DNA of 43,590 bases, taken from positions 1 to 43,590 of the forward strand of contig JAGXLC010000004.1 of the NCBI GenBank assembly GCA_018334875.1, read 5' to 3'. The stretch comes from Bacteroidales bacterium. Its GTDB lineage: Bacteria; Bacteroidota; Bacteroidia; Bacteroidales; UBA12077. Numbering within the stretch: position 1 is the stretch's first letter; the number at the start of each line of letters is the position of its first letter. Position numbers and translations under genes: made by a program. Under the pieces are notes generated by a model. That model saw only the letters and a program-made list of their open reading frames with translations. It searched no databases and was not told where the DNA came from. Below, one piece after another: positions 16,559 to 22,149 of this stretch.

Positions 16559-18163
16559 TTACTCTTTCAGATAATTCGCTGAAGATTGATCCCAGTTGTT
16601 CAGTACTTCTTTGGCCTCCAGGTAGCCCTCATCATTTTCGTTTACAATTTGGAAATATTCATTCATATCCCACATATCTCTTGCTATAAGTCCTTTTAAC
16701 TGAAGTTTGATTTCCTCCCCGGATTTTTCGAGTTCCTTTTCATTCAGTGCAATTCCTTCTTCCGTTGCCATCTCCGCCAGATCATCCATCATCTTTTCGG
16801 TGACTTCAAATTGTTCCTTATAATGGTCAAATGACGGATAGTCATTTTCCAGGGTTTCCCTGTTTTGATCGATATAGTTCAGGATATAGGAATTGATTAT
16901 ACCGCTTCGTATAAGTTGGTCCAAATAATTGGAATAAGCAGTGGTATCAAGCGGAATGAAGATATCCGGCATGATCCCCCCACCTCCATATACAACTCTT
17001 TCGTTGGTTTTGGTACGATATTTCAGGGAATCGGGGAAATCGATGCTATCTGCTGAGCTCATCTCCCCTTTATTAAATCTTTTTATGATATCTGTTTTAT
17101 AATCCTCCCGTCCGTTATTATAGGGTTTTTGAATGACTCGCCCTGTTGGTGTATGATAACGGGCTACTGTGAGCCGGATCATTGAACCGTCTGGCAGTGA
17201 AACGGGTCTCTGTACCAAGCCTTTGCCGAATGATCTCCTGCCAATGATAAGTCCCCGGTCCCAGTCCTGAACTGCTCCGGCAACAATTTCGCTTGCCGAG
17301 GCCGAACCTTCATCAATCAGAATTACGAGCTTTTCATCTTTAGAAATTCCTTCTTTCGTAGCATAATTTTCTTCTCTTTTCACCTTTAAGCCCTCGGTGT
17401 AAACTATGAGTTTATTGTCATCCAGAAACTCATCCGCCAGCTCAATGGCCTGTTCTAAATATCCTCCGCCATTATCTCTGAGATCAAGGATGAATGAATT
17501 GGCACCTTCTTTTTTTAATTTTTTTACTGCAGATGTAAACTCGTCATTGGTAGTCTGGGCAAAACGGTTAAGTTTAATGTAACCGGTGTTATCATCCGCC
17601 ATGTATGCTGCATCCATACTATGAATGGGGATTTCATCGCGGGTTATGGTAAAGTGCAGCAATTTTTCCATGCCGGGTCTTTTAACGGTTACATCCACCT
17701 TGGTCCCTTTTTCACCCAGCAGCCTGTCACGCACACCGGAAGTAGAAATTTCGATTCCGGCCACCGTCTCACCGTTTATTTTGATAATTCGATCACCAGC
17801 CTGAATCCCAACTTTCTCCGAGGGTCCACCTGAAATGGGGGATATAACATATATGGTATCTTTATAAATGTTAAATTGAATACCAATCCCTTCAAAGTTC
17901 CCCTGAAGCGGTTCATTCATGGCTTGCACCTCTTCTTTGGTTAAGTAGGTGGTATGGGGGTCCAGATCGGAAATCATTTCTTTGACGGCCTTTTCAACCA
18001 AATGTGAACGGTCCACCGAATCAATATAATAAGAAGAGATAAAATGCAGGGCTTTACCGAATTTATACATATCATCGTTAAAAATCTGCCCGCTCCCTGA
18101 TTTGGGTATCAAAAACACAATGAGCAGGGGGAGGAGTATGATGTTTCTTCTTAATGTTAACAT
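16559..18163 (-). CDS. C-terminal processing peptidase (S41/CtpA family)
   Basis: A periplasmic Ser/Lys protease of family S41 that trims the C-termini of envelope proteins. The 534-residue protein has an N-terminal signal sequence (about 1-26), a PDZ domain around 85-165 with the carboxylate-binding loop GIGIQF, and the protease core. The catalytic Ser lies in EGSASASEI (285-293) and the catalytic Lys is Lys314 in SFGKGLVQ. A C-terminal helical extension (about 400-534) is charged and typical of Bacteroidota homologues. It starts 17 bases after the SiaC-like gene and is the last of a probable guaA-siaB-siaC-ctp transcript. Its 3' end meets dgt. Confidence 0.94.
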   Translation of the reverse strand: MLTLRRNIILLPLLIVFLIPKSGSGQIFNDDMYKFGKALHFISSYYIDSVDRSHLVEKAVKEMISDLDPHTTYLTKEEVQAMNEPLQGNFEGIGIQFNIYKDTIYVISPISGGPSEKVGIQAGDRIIKINGETVAGIEISTSGVRDRLLGEKGTKVDVTVKRPGMEKLLHFTITRDEIPIHSMDAAYMADDNTGYIKLNRFAQTTNDEFTSAVKKLKKEGANSFILDLRDNGGGYLEQAIELADEFLDDNKLIVYTEGLKVKREENYATKEGISKDEKLVILIDEGSASASEIVAGAVQDWDRGLIIGRRSFGKGLVQRPVSLPDGSMIRLTVARYHTPTGRVIQKPYNNGREDYKTDIIKRFNKGEMSSADSIDFPDSLKYRTKTNERVVYGGGGIMPDIFIPLDTTAYSNYLDQLIRSGIINSYILNYIDQNRETLENDYPSFDHYKEQFEVTEKMMDDLAEMATEEGIALNEKELEKSGEEIKLQLKGLIARDMWDMNEYFQIVNENDEGYLEAKEVLNNWDQSSANYLKE

Positions 18164-18180: not shown

Positions 18181-18594
18181 TTAATTCTTTCTGATTAAAA
18201 AGTTGAAAGGAATATCGATGATTTCACTAAAATCCTCACCGTCTTCCAGTATCTGATCGTCCGGATCGTCATAGTACCAAAAAATGTTTAAATTCAGCCG
18301 CTTTTCATAAAACTTTTTGAAGTTTGAGATAATTTGGAAGATGTACTTGGAGGAGGAAGAGTTCATATATTCAAAATCAAACACTATAATAAACGTTTCA
18401 TTCAGCAATTTGTTTTGCTCATAATCTTCCAGTGTCCCTTTTATATAATTATGGACCCATGAAAGAACAGGTTCGTAGAATTCATACGCGTCTTCAGGTC
18501 TGGAAACACCAGCCATCTTGAATTTGTGTCTTTTCGGATCAAAGTCAACTTCCGGGGTAAAAGAAGTGGATGCTATGTATAATTTTTCTGCCAT
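18181..18594 (-). CDS. SiaC-family regulatory phosphoprotein (DUF1987)
   Basis: A 137-residue protein of the DUF1987/SiaC family. In Pseudomonas aeruginosa SiaC is phosphorylated by the kinase SiaB and dephosphorylated by the phosphatase SiaA, and the unphosphorylated form activates the diguanylate cyclase SiaD. The family signature is present: SFTPEVDFDP near the N-terminus and the phospho-acceptor helix start FEYMNSSSSKYIF, where one of Ser79-Ser82 should correspond to the modified Thr of SiaC. It lies 12 bases after the SiaB-like kinase gene, matching the expected pair. No diguanylate cyclase is seen nearby and its partner here is unknown. The fold resembles STAS domains. Confidence 0.85.
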   Translation of the reverse strand: MAEKLYIASTSFTPEVDFDPKRHKFKMAGVSRPEDAYEFYEPVLSWVHNYIKGTLEDYEQNKLLNETFIIVFDFEYMNSSSSKYIFQIISNFKKFYEKRLNLNIFWYYDDPDDQILEDGEDFSEIIDIPFNFLIRKN

Positions 18595-18606
18595 AACCTT
18601 TAGGTA

Positions 18607-19128
18607 TTATAAATTTAAAGGAACATACACCCTGATCGTGTAATAGGCTAAATGCTCCGTAATATCGACAATTCTATAGTAAATATTATTCTTTGAGATT
18701 TTGGTCATTTTTAGGATGCCTAAACCTGCTCCCTTCTTATTTTCATAAATTCCATTGGCCATAGTGTTTTTGTAAAGCTCCTGCAATTCATCGTAAGACA
18801 ATTGATTGATGTAATCAAGTTTCTTTTTTAGTGTTTCCGCATCTTTTTTAAGAATGGGATTTCCGGATTCGAGCCTAAAGAAGTCTTCCTCTTTTTTTAG
18901 CAGGAAATAAGGTTTTTTATGGGATTTACTGACTATGTGGTCGTCCAGTTCATTAACGTATTTATAGTTATTTTCGATGATTTCGACCATTAAGGTAACA
19001 ATTTTCCTGTGGGTAGATTTTTTCAGTTTCAGTTGCCTGCTAATTTGCTCCAGTTTTTCTATAAACTTTCCTGTTATTTGATAGTCCAAATAACCCTGAT
19101 GGTTTATTATTTCAGGATTTTGCTCCAT
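18607..19128 (-). CDS. SiaB-family GHKL-type protein kinase (DUF6272)
   Basis: A 173-residue protein resembling SiaB, a small GHKL ATPase that acts as a serine/threonine kinase on SiaC. The N-box-like segment is VEIIENNYKYVNE (48-60) and the glycine-rich lid is GAGLGILKM (133-141). It lacks a dimerisation or phospho-His domain, as expected for an anti-sigma-factor-type kinase. Its neighbour 12 bases downstream is the SiaC-like substrate. It sits 42 bases after guaA, and whether it shares that transcript is uncertain. Assignment is by motif and neighbour; the sequence between the two boxes is poorly conserved. Confidence 0.78.
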   Translation of the reverse strand: MEQNPEIINHQGYLDYQITGKFIEKLEQISRQLKLKKSTHRKIVTLMVEIIENNYKYVNELDDHIVSKSHKKPYFLLKKEEDFFRLESGNPILKKDAETLKKKLDYINQLSYDELQELYKNTMANGIYENKKGAGLGILKMTKISKNNIYYRIVDITEHLAYYTIRVYVPLNL

Positions 19129-19170: not shown

Positions 19171-20700
19171 TTATTCCCATTCTATTGTTGAAGGGGGTTT
19201 GGAACTGATGTCGTACACTACCCGATTGATGCCTTTTACCCGGTTGATTATTTTGCTGGATATTTCTGCCAGAAATTCATAGGGTAGATGAGCCCAGTCG
19301 GCTGTCATTCCATCTGTTGAAGTAACTGCTCTTAATGCAACCACATTTTCATATGTTCTTTCATCGCCCATTACCCCAACTGATTGTATTGGGAGTAATA
19401 TTGTGGCAGCCTGCCACACTTTATCATACAAATTGTGTTCCAGTAATCCGTTGATAAATATATCATCGGCTTCCTGCAGCAACTGAACTTTTTCGGGTGT
19501 GATATCACTAATGATCCGTATTCCCAGGCCGGGACCGGGGAAGGGATGCCTGTGCACCAGTTCATCTTTGACATTCAGTGTTTCACCTACTCTTCTTACT
19601 TCGTCCTTGAACAATAGCCTGAGGGGTTCAACTACTCTGAGATTCATTTTATCCGGAAGCCCTCCGACATTGTGATGCGATTTGATGGTTACAGAGGGTC
19701 CGTTTACCGATACGGATTCTATCACATCAGGATAGATGGTTCCTTGGGCAAGCCATTGGATATTTTTTATCTTTTTTGCCTCATTATCGAATACCTCTAT
19801 AAAATTCCTGCCAATGATTTTCCGTTTTTCTTCCGGATCGATTACTCCTTGCAGGTCGTTATAAAATTTTTCTTTTGCATCAACTCCTTTTACGTTCAAT
19901 CCCATATCCTTATAGGAATCAAGCACCTTTTTAAACTCATTTTTCCGAAGCAATCCGTTATCTACAAAGATACAAATGAGATTTGTTCCTATGGCTTTAT
20001 GAAGAAGGGTAGCCGTAACAGAGGAATCTACGCCCCCCGAGAGACCCAGTAGTACTTTGTCGTTTCCCAATTGTTCTTTAAGCTGCCTGATGGTTGTTTC
20101 GGCAAAAACTTCCGGGGTCCAGTCCTGCTTGCAACCACAAATATCCACTACAAAATTTTTCAGGATCTTTTTTCCTTCCAGAGTGTGATACACTTCAGGA
20201 TGGAATTGTATACCATAAGTAGGTTCCTTTTCATTCTTATAGGCTCCTACCCCGACATCTTTCGTACTGGCGGTAATTTTATAATGCTCGGGTAATTTAG
20301 CGATGGTATCCCCGTGAGACATCCATACCTGGGTATTTTGCTTTACTTCTTTCAGTAGCTCAAATTGGGGATCAATATAGCTTAGATTGGCCCTTCCGTA
20401 TTCTCTTGTTTCAGAACCCAGCACTTTTCCCCCGTAGTGGTGGGCTATATACTGAGCGCCATAACAGATGCCCAGTATGGGTGCTTTTCCCTTGATTTTG
20501 TCGAGATTGACCTGAGGTGCATTTTTGTCCCGCACGGAAAAGGGACTTCCTGATAATATTATCCCTTTGACAGATTCATCCGGCTCGGGGATTTTATTGA
20601 ATGGATAAATGTCACAATATACATTCAGTTCTCTTACCCGTCTTGCAATAAGTTGTGTATACTGAGACCCAAAATCCAATATAATGATACGTTCCTGCAT
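19171..20700 (-). CDS. guaA: GMP synthase (glutamine-hydrolysing)
   Basis: Two-domain enzyme that converts XMP to GMP using glutamine and ATP. The 509-residue form given here starts at ATG 20700 ([16 protein letters not shown]). An AAGGAGG immediately upstream supports this start; a 9-residue longer frame from a TTG at 20727 would include that ribosome-binding site and is unlikely. The N-terminal class I amidotransferase has the nucleophile Cys79 in LGICYGAQY and the His/Glu pair in FHPEV. The ATP-pyrophosphatase domain has LSGGVDSSV, and the C-terminal dimerisation domain has [11 protein letters not shown] and ends [10 protein letters not shown] terminator separates it from rnz upstream, so it begins its own transcript. 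Confidence 0.97.
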
Positions 20701-20736
20701 CTGCCTCCTTTTTAGGAAGTATTTCAAATTGGTAGC

Positions 20737-20812: not shown

Positions 20813-21760
20813 CTACCCGCTACTATGGGATCTTTTTATCCGGTAAGGTTTAATTTCATATACCATTCCGTCCTCTGCGGGAATGGTTTCCCGGAAAATT
20901 TCTTTTGCTTCGTTAATCAGGTGATCAATATTTTTATACCGTGCTGAAAAATGTCCGACAATAAGTTTCTTTGCCTGAGATTTTCTGGCTATTTCGGCAG
21001 CTTGTCCGGCGGTTGAATGCAGGGTTTTATCTGCCTCCTCCTTATGTTCTTCCTGAAAGGTGGCTTCATGATACAAAAGGTCCACATTGTTTATAACGGG
21101 TAATATCTCTTCGTTATAGGCGGTATCTGAACAGAAAGCGTAACTTCTCTGACGATAGGGTGGTTCGGTGATTTCTGTATGGGGTATTATCCTGCCGTCA
21201 GGTTTGGTGTAATCTCCGCCGTTTTTGATTTGGCGGATATTTTTAACAGAAATGTTATATTTTTCCACATAACTTTTTTTGATATTCGGCAGCCGTGGTT
21301 TTTCGGCAAAAAGAAATCCGGAGGCGGGGATTTTATGTTTTAAGGGAAAAGAATATACTTTTACGCGTTTGTCTTCAAAGATTAACTCTTTTTCATCCGG
21401 GTTGACCGGATGAAAATGAATGGTATAATTCAATGAGCCTTCAAAGTTTTTTCTGATGAAATCGATGCCTTTTTTTAAAGGCTTATGGGCATATATATGG
21501 AGATCTTTTTTACGGTCGAGCAGGTTAAAGGAGGAAATCAGACCGAACAGGCCATAGAAGTGATCGCCGTGAAGATGGCTTATGAAGATATGGTTGATTT
21601 TTCCGAATTTGATCTTATTGCGTCTGAGCTGTATTTGCGTCCCCTCTCCACAATCAATTAAAAATAACCGCTCATATACATTAAGTACATGAGCGGTTAA
21701 GTTTCTTCCAGAAGTTGGTAAAGCAGAGCTACTTCCCAATATTGTCAGTTCAAATTTCAA
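20813..21760 (-). CDS. rnz: Ribonuclease Z (tRNA 3'-end endonuclease)
   Basis: Metallo-beta-lactamase-fold endoribonuclease that cleaves tRNA precursors after the discriminator base. The 315-residue protein has the zinc motif SHLHGDH (61-67), the family N-terminus LTILGSSSALPT, the exosite-like insertion around 150-190, and further His ligands in YHEATF and VGHFSARY. The length matches the short form. The start appears to be TTG at 21760, as no in-frame ATG exists near the N-terminus and the family alignment begins here. It is 8 bases after the STAS gene stop, so the two are probably translationally coupled. Confidence 0.95.
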   Translation of the reverse strand: MKFELTILGSSSALPTSGRNLTAHVLNVYERLFLIDCGEGTQIQLRRNKIKFGKINHIFISHLHGDHFYGLFGLISSFNLLDRKKDLHIYAHKPLKKGIDFIRKNFEGSLNYTIHFHPVNPDEKELIFEDKRVKVYSFPLKHKIPASGFLFAEKPRLPNIKKSYVEKYNISVKNIRQIKNGGDYTKPDGRIIPHTEITEPPYRQRSYAFCSDTAYNEEILPVINNVDLLYHEATFQEEHKEEADKTLHSTAGQAAEIARKSQAKKLIVGHFSARYKNIDHLINEAKEIFRETIPAEDGMVYEIKPYRIKRSHSSG

Positions 21761-21768
21761 GTCAATGC

Positions 21769-22149
21769 TTATTTGTCTTCGCTTTCACCTGATTTTCTGC
21801 TTTTTTCTTCTGATTTTATGATTTCTTCTGCTTCTCCTACACTATGAGCAATGTTCAGAACCGTATCGAGCTGTGAAATGGTTATCAATCGGTCAACGGC
21901 ATCATTTAAACCCGTCAGCACAAAAGTTCCGCCGGCATTTTTGCATAACCTGTTGGCAACCAAAATAGCACTTAACCCATTGGAATCACAATATTTCACT
22001 TTGCTTAGGTCAATGATAATGTTTTTTTCTCCCTTTCCTGATATGAGCACCAATTCTGATTTCAGGCTGGGAGCCACATTCGTATCAAGCTTTTCCGCTA
22101 AAACTTGAATGGATGTATAATTATCATATTTTTCTATATTAAATTCCAT
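21769..22149 (-). CDS. STAS-domain anti-sigma-factor antagonist-like protein (first)
   Basis: A 126-residue single STAS domain with a short charged C-terminal tail rich in Ser, Glu and Lys. The STAS landmarks are present: IIIDLSKVKYCDSNGLSAIL, where Ser56 is in the position phosphorylated in SpoIIAA-type proteins, preceded by an Asp. Such proteins are switched by a GHKL kinase and a PP2C phosphatase. No kinase is adjacent, but a SiaB-type kinase is encoded about 3 kb downstream on the same strand, beyond a terminator. It lies between rpsA (23-base gap) and rnz (8-base gap), so it is transcribed with translation and RNA-processing genes. Confidence 0.88.
   Translation of the reverse strand: MEFNIEKYDNYTSIQVLAEKLDTNVAPSLKSELVLISGKGEKNIIIDLSKVKYCDSNGLSAILVANRLCKNAGGTFVLTGLNDAVDRLITISQLDTVLNIAHSVGEAEEIIKSEEKSRKSGESEDK

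Follow-up and report, generated by a model that had tools for sequence, protein, structure and literature searches.

The window, a 43,590-nucleotide stretch of DNA from a Bacteroidales bacterium, corresponds to contig C4 in a draft genome of 4.72 Mb (533 contigs, 96.3% complete, 2.4% contamination). At the center of the locus lie two genes, referred to as siaB1 and siaC1, which are both on the minus strand and separated by 12 nt. They sit in a longer run of genes on the same strand, with guaA upstream and a peptidase gene downstream. The features of the locus, in window coordinates, are the following.

16559–18163, minus strand: S41 C-terminal processing peptidase, lying 17 nt downstream of siaC1 (TIGR00225, 303.8 bits vs 218.6)
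18181–18594, minus strand: siaC1, SiaC-family (DUF1987) regulatory phosphoprotein, 137 aa (ORF, profiles, fold)
18358–18360, minus strand: Ser79 codon of siaC1, counterpart of Thr68 of Pseudomonas SiaC (alignment and model)
18607–19128, minus strand: siaB1, SiaB-family GHKL protein kinase, 173 aa (ORF, profiles, fold)
18970–18984, minus strand: kinase N-box of siaB1, Glu49...Asn53 (alignment)
19171–20727, minus strand: guaA, GMP synthase, 42 nt before siaB1 (NF000848, 786.6 bits)
20813–21760, minus strand: RNase Z-like metallohydrolase in the same strand run (named by eye from sequence)
21769–22149, minus strand: STAS-domain protein of the anti-sigma antagonist type in the same strand run (profile matches)

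The gene rpsA, named by eye from its sequence, also belongs to this strand run upstream of siaB1. The STAS gene is flanked by rpsA and the RNase Z-like gene and is kept in relatives; its product has a DSNGL motif, the serine of which is a possible phosphorylation site.

Profile searches assign both members of the pair to their families. SiaC1 matches Pfam PF09345 with 110.5 bits (cut-off 24.5), and SiaB1 matches Pfam DUF6272 (PF19788) with 91.4 bits (cut-off 26.6) as well as the NCBIfam model 'SiaB family protein kinase' (NF038262) with 98.2 bits (cut-off 85). In NCBIfam, both proteins stay below the Pseudomonas-type equivalogs, SiaC1 with 72.4 of 150 bits for NF038265 and SiaB1 with 40.1 of 225 bits for NF038264. 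By phmmer, SiaC1 matches the solved Pseudomonas SiaC at E 2e-10, and SiaB1 matches the solved SiaB only at E 0.058. We built structure models of both proteins from alignments of relatives. The SiaC1 model (pLDDT 92.9) has chain 6kko_D as its top PDB match (E 6e-11, TMq 0.81), and the SiaB1 model (pLDDT 86.1) has chain 6kko_A (E 2e-9, TMq 0.79), so that the top matches of the two models come from the same entry, the Pseudomonas SiaB–SiaC complex.

In Pseudomonas, SiaB phosphorylates SiaC on Thr68; unphosphorylated SiaC docks on a helical part of its target, and phosphorylation prevents this docking, as described in excerpts of two papers (PMC7647112, PMC8457831). In the SiaC1 model, the residue at the Thr68 position is also phosphorylatable, a serine rather than a threonine: Ser79, the first residue of helix 79–97, which is invariant in the 14 aligned SiaC1 sequences. 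E49 and N53 of the kinase N-box are likewise invariant in 23 of 23 aligned SiaB. SiaC1 carries approximately 10 added residues after helix 1 relative to the other nine SiaC of the genome. The SiaB/SiaC pair proposed in the preliminary description is thus real by families, folds and the position of the phosphosite. A lone oddity or an annotation artefact is ruled out by families, folds and conservation.

The ORFs of the window and a profile search revealed no siaA or siaD homologue at this locus. Profile searches of all contigs revealed a larger set: 10 SiaC and 4 SiaB, with the window pair among them, and 16 matches to the SpoIIE-type phosphatase domain. The pair is therefore not an isolated case, and six of the 10 SiaC have no adjoining SiaB. 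On contig C104, SpoIIE, SiaB and SiaC are encoded consecutively, with the PP2C gene directly upstream of siaB and siaC; its top NCBIfam match is prot_phos_SiaA (167 bits, E 6e-49, equivalog cut-off 700). On contig C78, two SpoIIE genes accompany SiaB and SiaC, and contig C101 has three tandem SiaC near a TPR-SpoIIE gene. The absence of SiaA claimed in the preliminary description thus applies to the window locus, and is ruled out for the genome by the SpoIIE matches and the SiaA-like PP2C of C104.

The absence of SiaD, in turn, holds for the whole genome: the profile search of the 533-contig, 96.3% complete draft gave no GGDEF match, with a profile control that was positive in 8 of 14 known genomes. 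A linked siaA–siaD locus elsewhere, the finding that would have spoken against the preliminary description, is present only in its first half, as siaA with siaB and siaC on C104. Since neither SiaD nor any other GGDEF protein was found, the output is not a SiaD of the known kind, in agreement with the earlier proposal that SiaC must regulate something else here.

A set of three tandem siaC near a TPR-SpoIIE gene is conserved in two genomes of the genus (L035:8149-9481, minus strand; L205:7218-8555, plus strand), and the surrounding genes are pilus- or chaperone-like by eye. Upstream of the C104 operon (L030:8488-11525, minus strand), we observed a GAF protein gene together with one CheB-like and two CheR-like genes, the Che assignments being made by eye. 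This suggests a chemosensory-type input to that operon.

By comparing relatives, we followed the window pair through its family. SiaC1 counterparts have 69–73% identity within the genus (three genomes) and about 44–54% in the sister genus. All 21 family genomes examined, the window included, have guaA upstream of siaC1 on the same strand, and all 21 family SiaC1, again with the window, keep the counterpart of the phospho-Ser. An S41 gene lies at most 400 nt downstream of siaC1 in 12 of 21 by a narrow motif, and was also read by eye in gene lists. Of the 20 relatives read, 11 have siaB1 beside siaC1 and nine lack it. In eight of these nine, guaA and siaC1 are separated by a gap of 87–281 nt; the remaining one has another gene pair there. 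That pair (L094:8103-8865, plus strand) consists of two genes on the opposite strand and is HEPN/MNT toxin-antitoxin-like by eye.

A guaA-only tree gives four changes for the loss of siaB1, and a five-gene tree gives two (bootstrap 2–3). The gene was lost at least once in the family, and one origin is also compatible with the five-gene tree. We tried 12 pairs of siaC1 for dN/dS, two of which gave no dS. The ratio is 0.078–0.115 in four close siaB1-less pairs, 0.10–0.11 in two further siaB1-less pairs that are near saturation, and 0.02–0.09 in four siaB1-bearing pairs. siaC1 is under purifying selection even where siaB1 has been lost. As siaC1 is kept in such genomes, SiaC1 probably works there and is phosphorylated by another SiaB.

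In our sample, only the window's family shows the guaA–siaC–S41 arrangement. Outside the family, SiaC of the same general type closes other runs of housekeeping genes, adjoining an S46 peptidase, RNase HI/HII, a DUF4407-like gene or other genes (some names given by eye). SpoIIE is directly beside siaB or siaC in 5 of 59 non-family named loci, and one of these, L180, has no SiaC ORF. At another locus, L204, the ORF list and the profile likewise gave no SiaC.

We drew one sample of 198 genomes of the order Bacteroidales, in which counts ignore kinship. SiaC is present in 87 of them. SiaB occurs in 85 of these 87 and in none of the remaining 111, and SpoIIE in 148 of the 198 (87/87 SiaC genomes vs 61/111 others). 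GGDEF proteins are found in only six, one of which has SiaC, which leaves 86 of the 87 genomes with SiaC free of GGDEF matches; the earlier expectation that diguanylate cyclases are uncommon is borne out in the order. In this sample, the copy number per genome reaches at least 21 for SiaC and at least 17 for SiaB. The window's family has SiaC in 25 of 25 genomes; 14 of these reach a completeness of 90% or more with contamination of 5% or less, and they have between 8 and 19 copies each.

The wider survey also displayed variants of both proteins. A 370-aa ORF (L195:7373-8485, minus strand) encodes a single chain with two SiaB kinase domains, and ORFs of similar length recur among the SiaB matches of the order. 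Longer SiaC of 168–171 aa with a C-terminal extension (L149:2971-3477, L163:2973-3488 and L132:2389-2895, all on the minus strand) adjoin a standard SiaC of 126–127 aa. In Clostridium homopropionicum and C. thailandense, siaB, siaC and SpoIIE are consecutive (L137:9441-12236 and L183:9445-12240).

The gene after siaC on C104 occupies the slot of siaD. It encodes a 1026-aa protein with an N-terminal TerB domain (PF05099), an ABC ATPase and ABC2-membrane domains, referred to as the TerB-ABC-ABC2 exporter. Using its first 250 residues as the query (E ≤ 1e-10, 198 genomes), we found relatives in 84 genomes, namely 79 of the 87 SiaC genomes vs 5 of the 111 others, kinship being ignored. The five matches in genomes without SiaC are weak, with E from 1.4e-29 to 2.7e-14. 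Eight SiaC genomes have no exporter match, each with one or two SiaC; therefore other outputs must exist there. The genomes of C. homopropionicum and C. thailandense gave no match to the TerB-ABC exporter.

We then read the surroundings of the 30 best exporter matches, which come from 30 genomes and 20 families. Within 1.5 kb, siaB is found in 30 of 30, siaC in 29 and SpoIIE in 27, and the recognised genes are on one strand in all 30 loci. Median gaps are 37 nt between SpoIIE and siaB, 14 nt between siaB and siaC, and 45 nt between siaC and the exporter; the range of the last gap includes 1024 nt from L217, where the exporter ORF is split. Because the ranking scored resemblance to an exporter that itself belongs to the operon, these 30 loci attest to an old operon and do not imply that all exporters are linked. 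The same siaA–siaB–siaC–exporter operon is present in a cultured, named isolate, Perlabentimonas gracilis (L237). Exporter paralogues also occur away from siaB and siaC, in 10 of 12 loci examined. Meanwhile, a second exporter is convergent with another siaB–siaC pair in all 12 family stretches (of 20) that reach that pair; unlike its relatives, the genome of the window has no exporter adjoining this pair, on contig C15.

Loose and strict regular expressions, built from residues named in an excerpt of an eLife 2021 paper (PMC8457831), detected no SiaD-like docking motif in 177 ORFs of the window's own genome or in 19 full-length exporters, which is a weak test. Anti-phage defence was also considered as a role and rejected: PADLOC has no match for SiaC, SiaB, S41 or STAS, its matches on the exporter are in the ABC-ATPase region, and the C104 phosphatase has one weak match, LmuB (E 0.004).

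On the basis of these observations, we consider it moderately probable that the window pair is a working SiaB–SiaC phosphoswitch within a multi-copy, c-di-GMP-free network of SiaB, SiaC and PP2C proteins, that its target is not a diguanylate cyclase, and that the C104 copy acts on the exporter. By homology, SiaB1 would phosphorylate SiaC1, most likely on Ser79, and SpoIIE/SiaA-type phosphatases encoded elsewhere would remove the phosphate in trans. By analogy with Pseudomonas, unphosphorylated SiaC1 may dock on a helical part of its target through the helix that starts with Ser79 and the last helix, thereby changing the activity of the target, and phosphorylation would block this docking. The target is predicted to be something other than a diguanylate cyclase, as the genome search gave no such enzyme. 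For the canonical siaA–siaB–siaC copy on C104, the operon points to the downstream TerB-ABC-ABC2 exporter, in the place of SiaD, as the most likely binding partner.

For SiaC1 itself, the output is probably an exporter of the TerB-ABC family or another unlinked target, and SiaC1 may be phosphorylated by kinases besides SiaB1, as the loss of siaB1 with retention of siaC1 suggests. Among the candidate targets of SiaC1, an exporter of this family takes the largest share, one still well short of an even chance; SiaC1 is not linked by position to any exporter in its own genome, which counts against it. Tentatively, we speculate that unphosphorylated SiaC both binds and gates the TerB-ABC-ABC2 exporters, the operon's replacement for SiaD, with the window pair as one of several parallel inputs and Ser79 as a substrate of two or more SiaB; this fuller version is possible and rather doubtful.

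The order of the genes invites a more local interpretation, in which SiaC1 directly regulates an operon neighbour, either GuaA, and with it the supply of GMP, or the S41 protease, as the preliminary description had hinted. The constancy of guaA upstream of siaC1 in the family, which extends to genomes that have lost siaB1, and the S41 gene downstream in 12 of 21 by the narrow motif speak for it, and an excerpt of the eLife 2021 paper has its authors suggesting that DUF1987 proteins modulate adjacent proteins (PMC8457831). The varied neighbours of the same SiaC type outside the family argue against GuaA or S41 as a dedicated target. In addition, the S41 product starts with a signal-like hydrophobic stretch (by eye), and therefore the protease would be across the membrane. 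We regard a neighbour as target as unlikely, and the earlier hint as weak. A slightly lower probability is given to SiaC1 being mainly a decoy or buffer substrate, which tunes the kinases and phosphatases of the network and has no effector of its own. The excess of 10 SiaC over 4 SiaB in one genome, the six SiaC with no SiaB beside them and the retention of siaC1 in the nine of 20 relatives that lack siaB1 are consistent with such a role; a pure decoy would need only the phosphosite, whereas the putative target-binding helices of SiaC1 are conserved as well.

That the pair controls a sigma/anti-sigma circuit, with the STAS protein (21769–22149) as intermediary, appears very improbable to us. 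This gene of the anti-sigma antagonist type is upstream in the same strand run and was found in 16 of the 21 stretches covered, the window among them and some of them ending early, and the SiaB fold is distantly like that of RsbW and SpoIIAB, but the fold search places SiaB1 much nearer to SiaB than to either. That the pair is a decaying remnant is hardly credible: nine of the 20 relatives lack siaB1 next to siaC1, yet the catalytic Glu and Asn and the phospho-Ser are kept, and siaC1 has a dN/dS of 0.08–0.12 in the four close siaB1-less pairs. Purifying selection and the kept motifs largely refute decay.

The preferred reading, a working phosphoswitch in a multi-copy network, can be compared with SiaABCD of Pseudomonas aeruginosa, which consists of the PP2C SiaA, the kinase SiaB, the phosphoprotein SiaC and the diguanylate cyclase SiaD. 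The window pair shares with it the kinase and phosphoprotein families, the order siaB–siaC, the fold and the position of the phosphosite, and its genome encodes, away from the window, a SiaA-like PP2C linked to siaB and siaC. It differs in that no SiaD or other GGDEF protein was found, in the Ser for Thr at the phosphosite, in the lack of a linked siaA in the window, in the many paralogues and in the ABC exporter found in the canonical operon at the position of SiaD. The logic of a PP2C, a GHKL Ser/Thr kinase and a STAS-like substrate is also that of RsbU/RsbW/RsbV and SpoIIE/SpoIIAB/SpoIIAA; unlike these, SiaB and SiaC are separate families, with Pseudomonas SiaB far ahead of RsbW and SpoIIAB in the fold search. 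The N-terminal TerB domain places the exporter downstream of siaC among TerB-domain proteins (PF05099), from which it differs in two respects: its single chain of about 1026 aa also contains ABC and ABC2-membrane domains, and its gene belongs to a siaABC operon.

In open-licence papers, searched by titles and the starts of abstracts, we found none that deals with SiaC of Bacteroidota or with an operon joining siaABC to an exporter; the one paper in this set that pairs the SiaABC names with a Bacteroid term is on Campylobacterota and cites SiaABCD in passing. As far as this literature was searched, SiaC is known only as the activator of one diguanylate cyclase. SiaC is abundant in an order that has almost no diguanylate cyclases, and therefore activation of SiaD is not its general function. 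The conserved siaA–siaB–siaC–TerB/ABC operon provides a concrete and cheaply testable candidate for a second output, an exporter gated by Ser/Thr phosphorylation. With 10 SiaC and 4 SiaB in one genome, it also becomes testable how parallel partner switches keep their specificity or share it.
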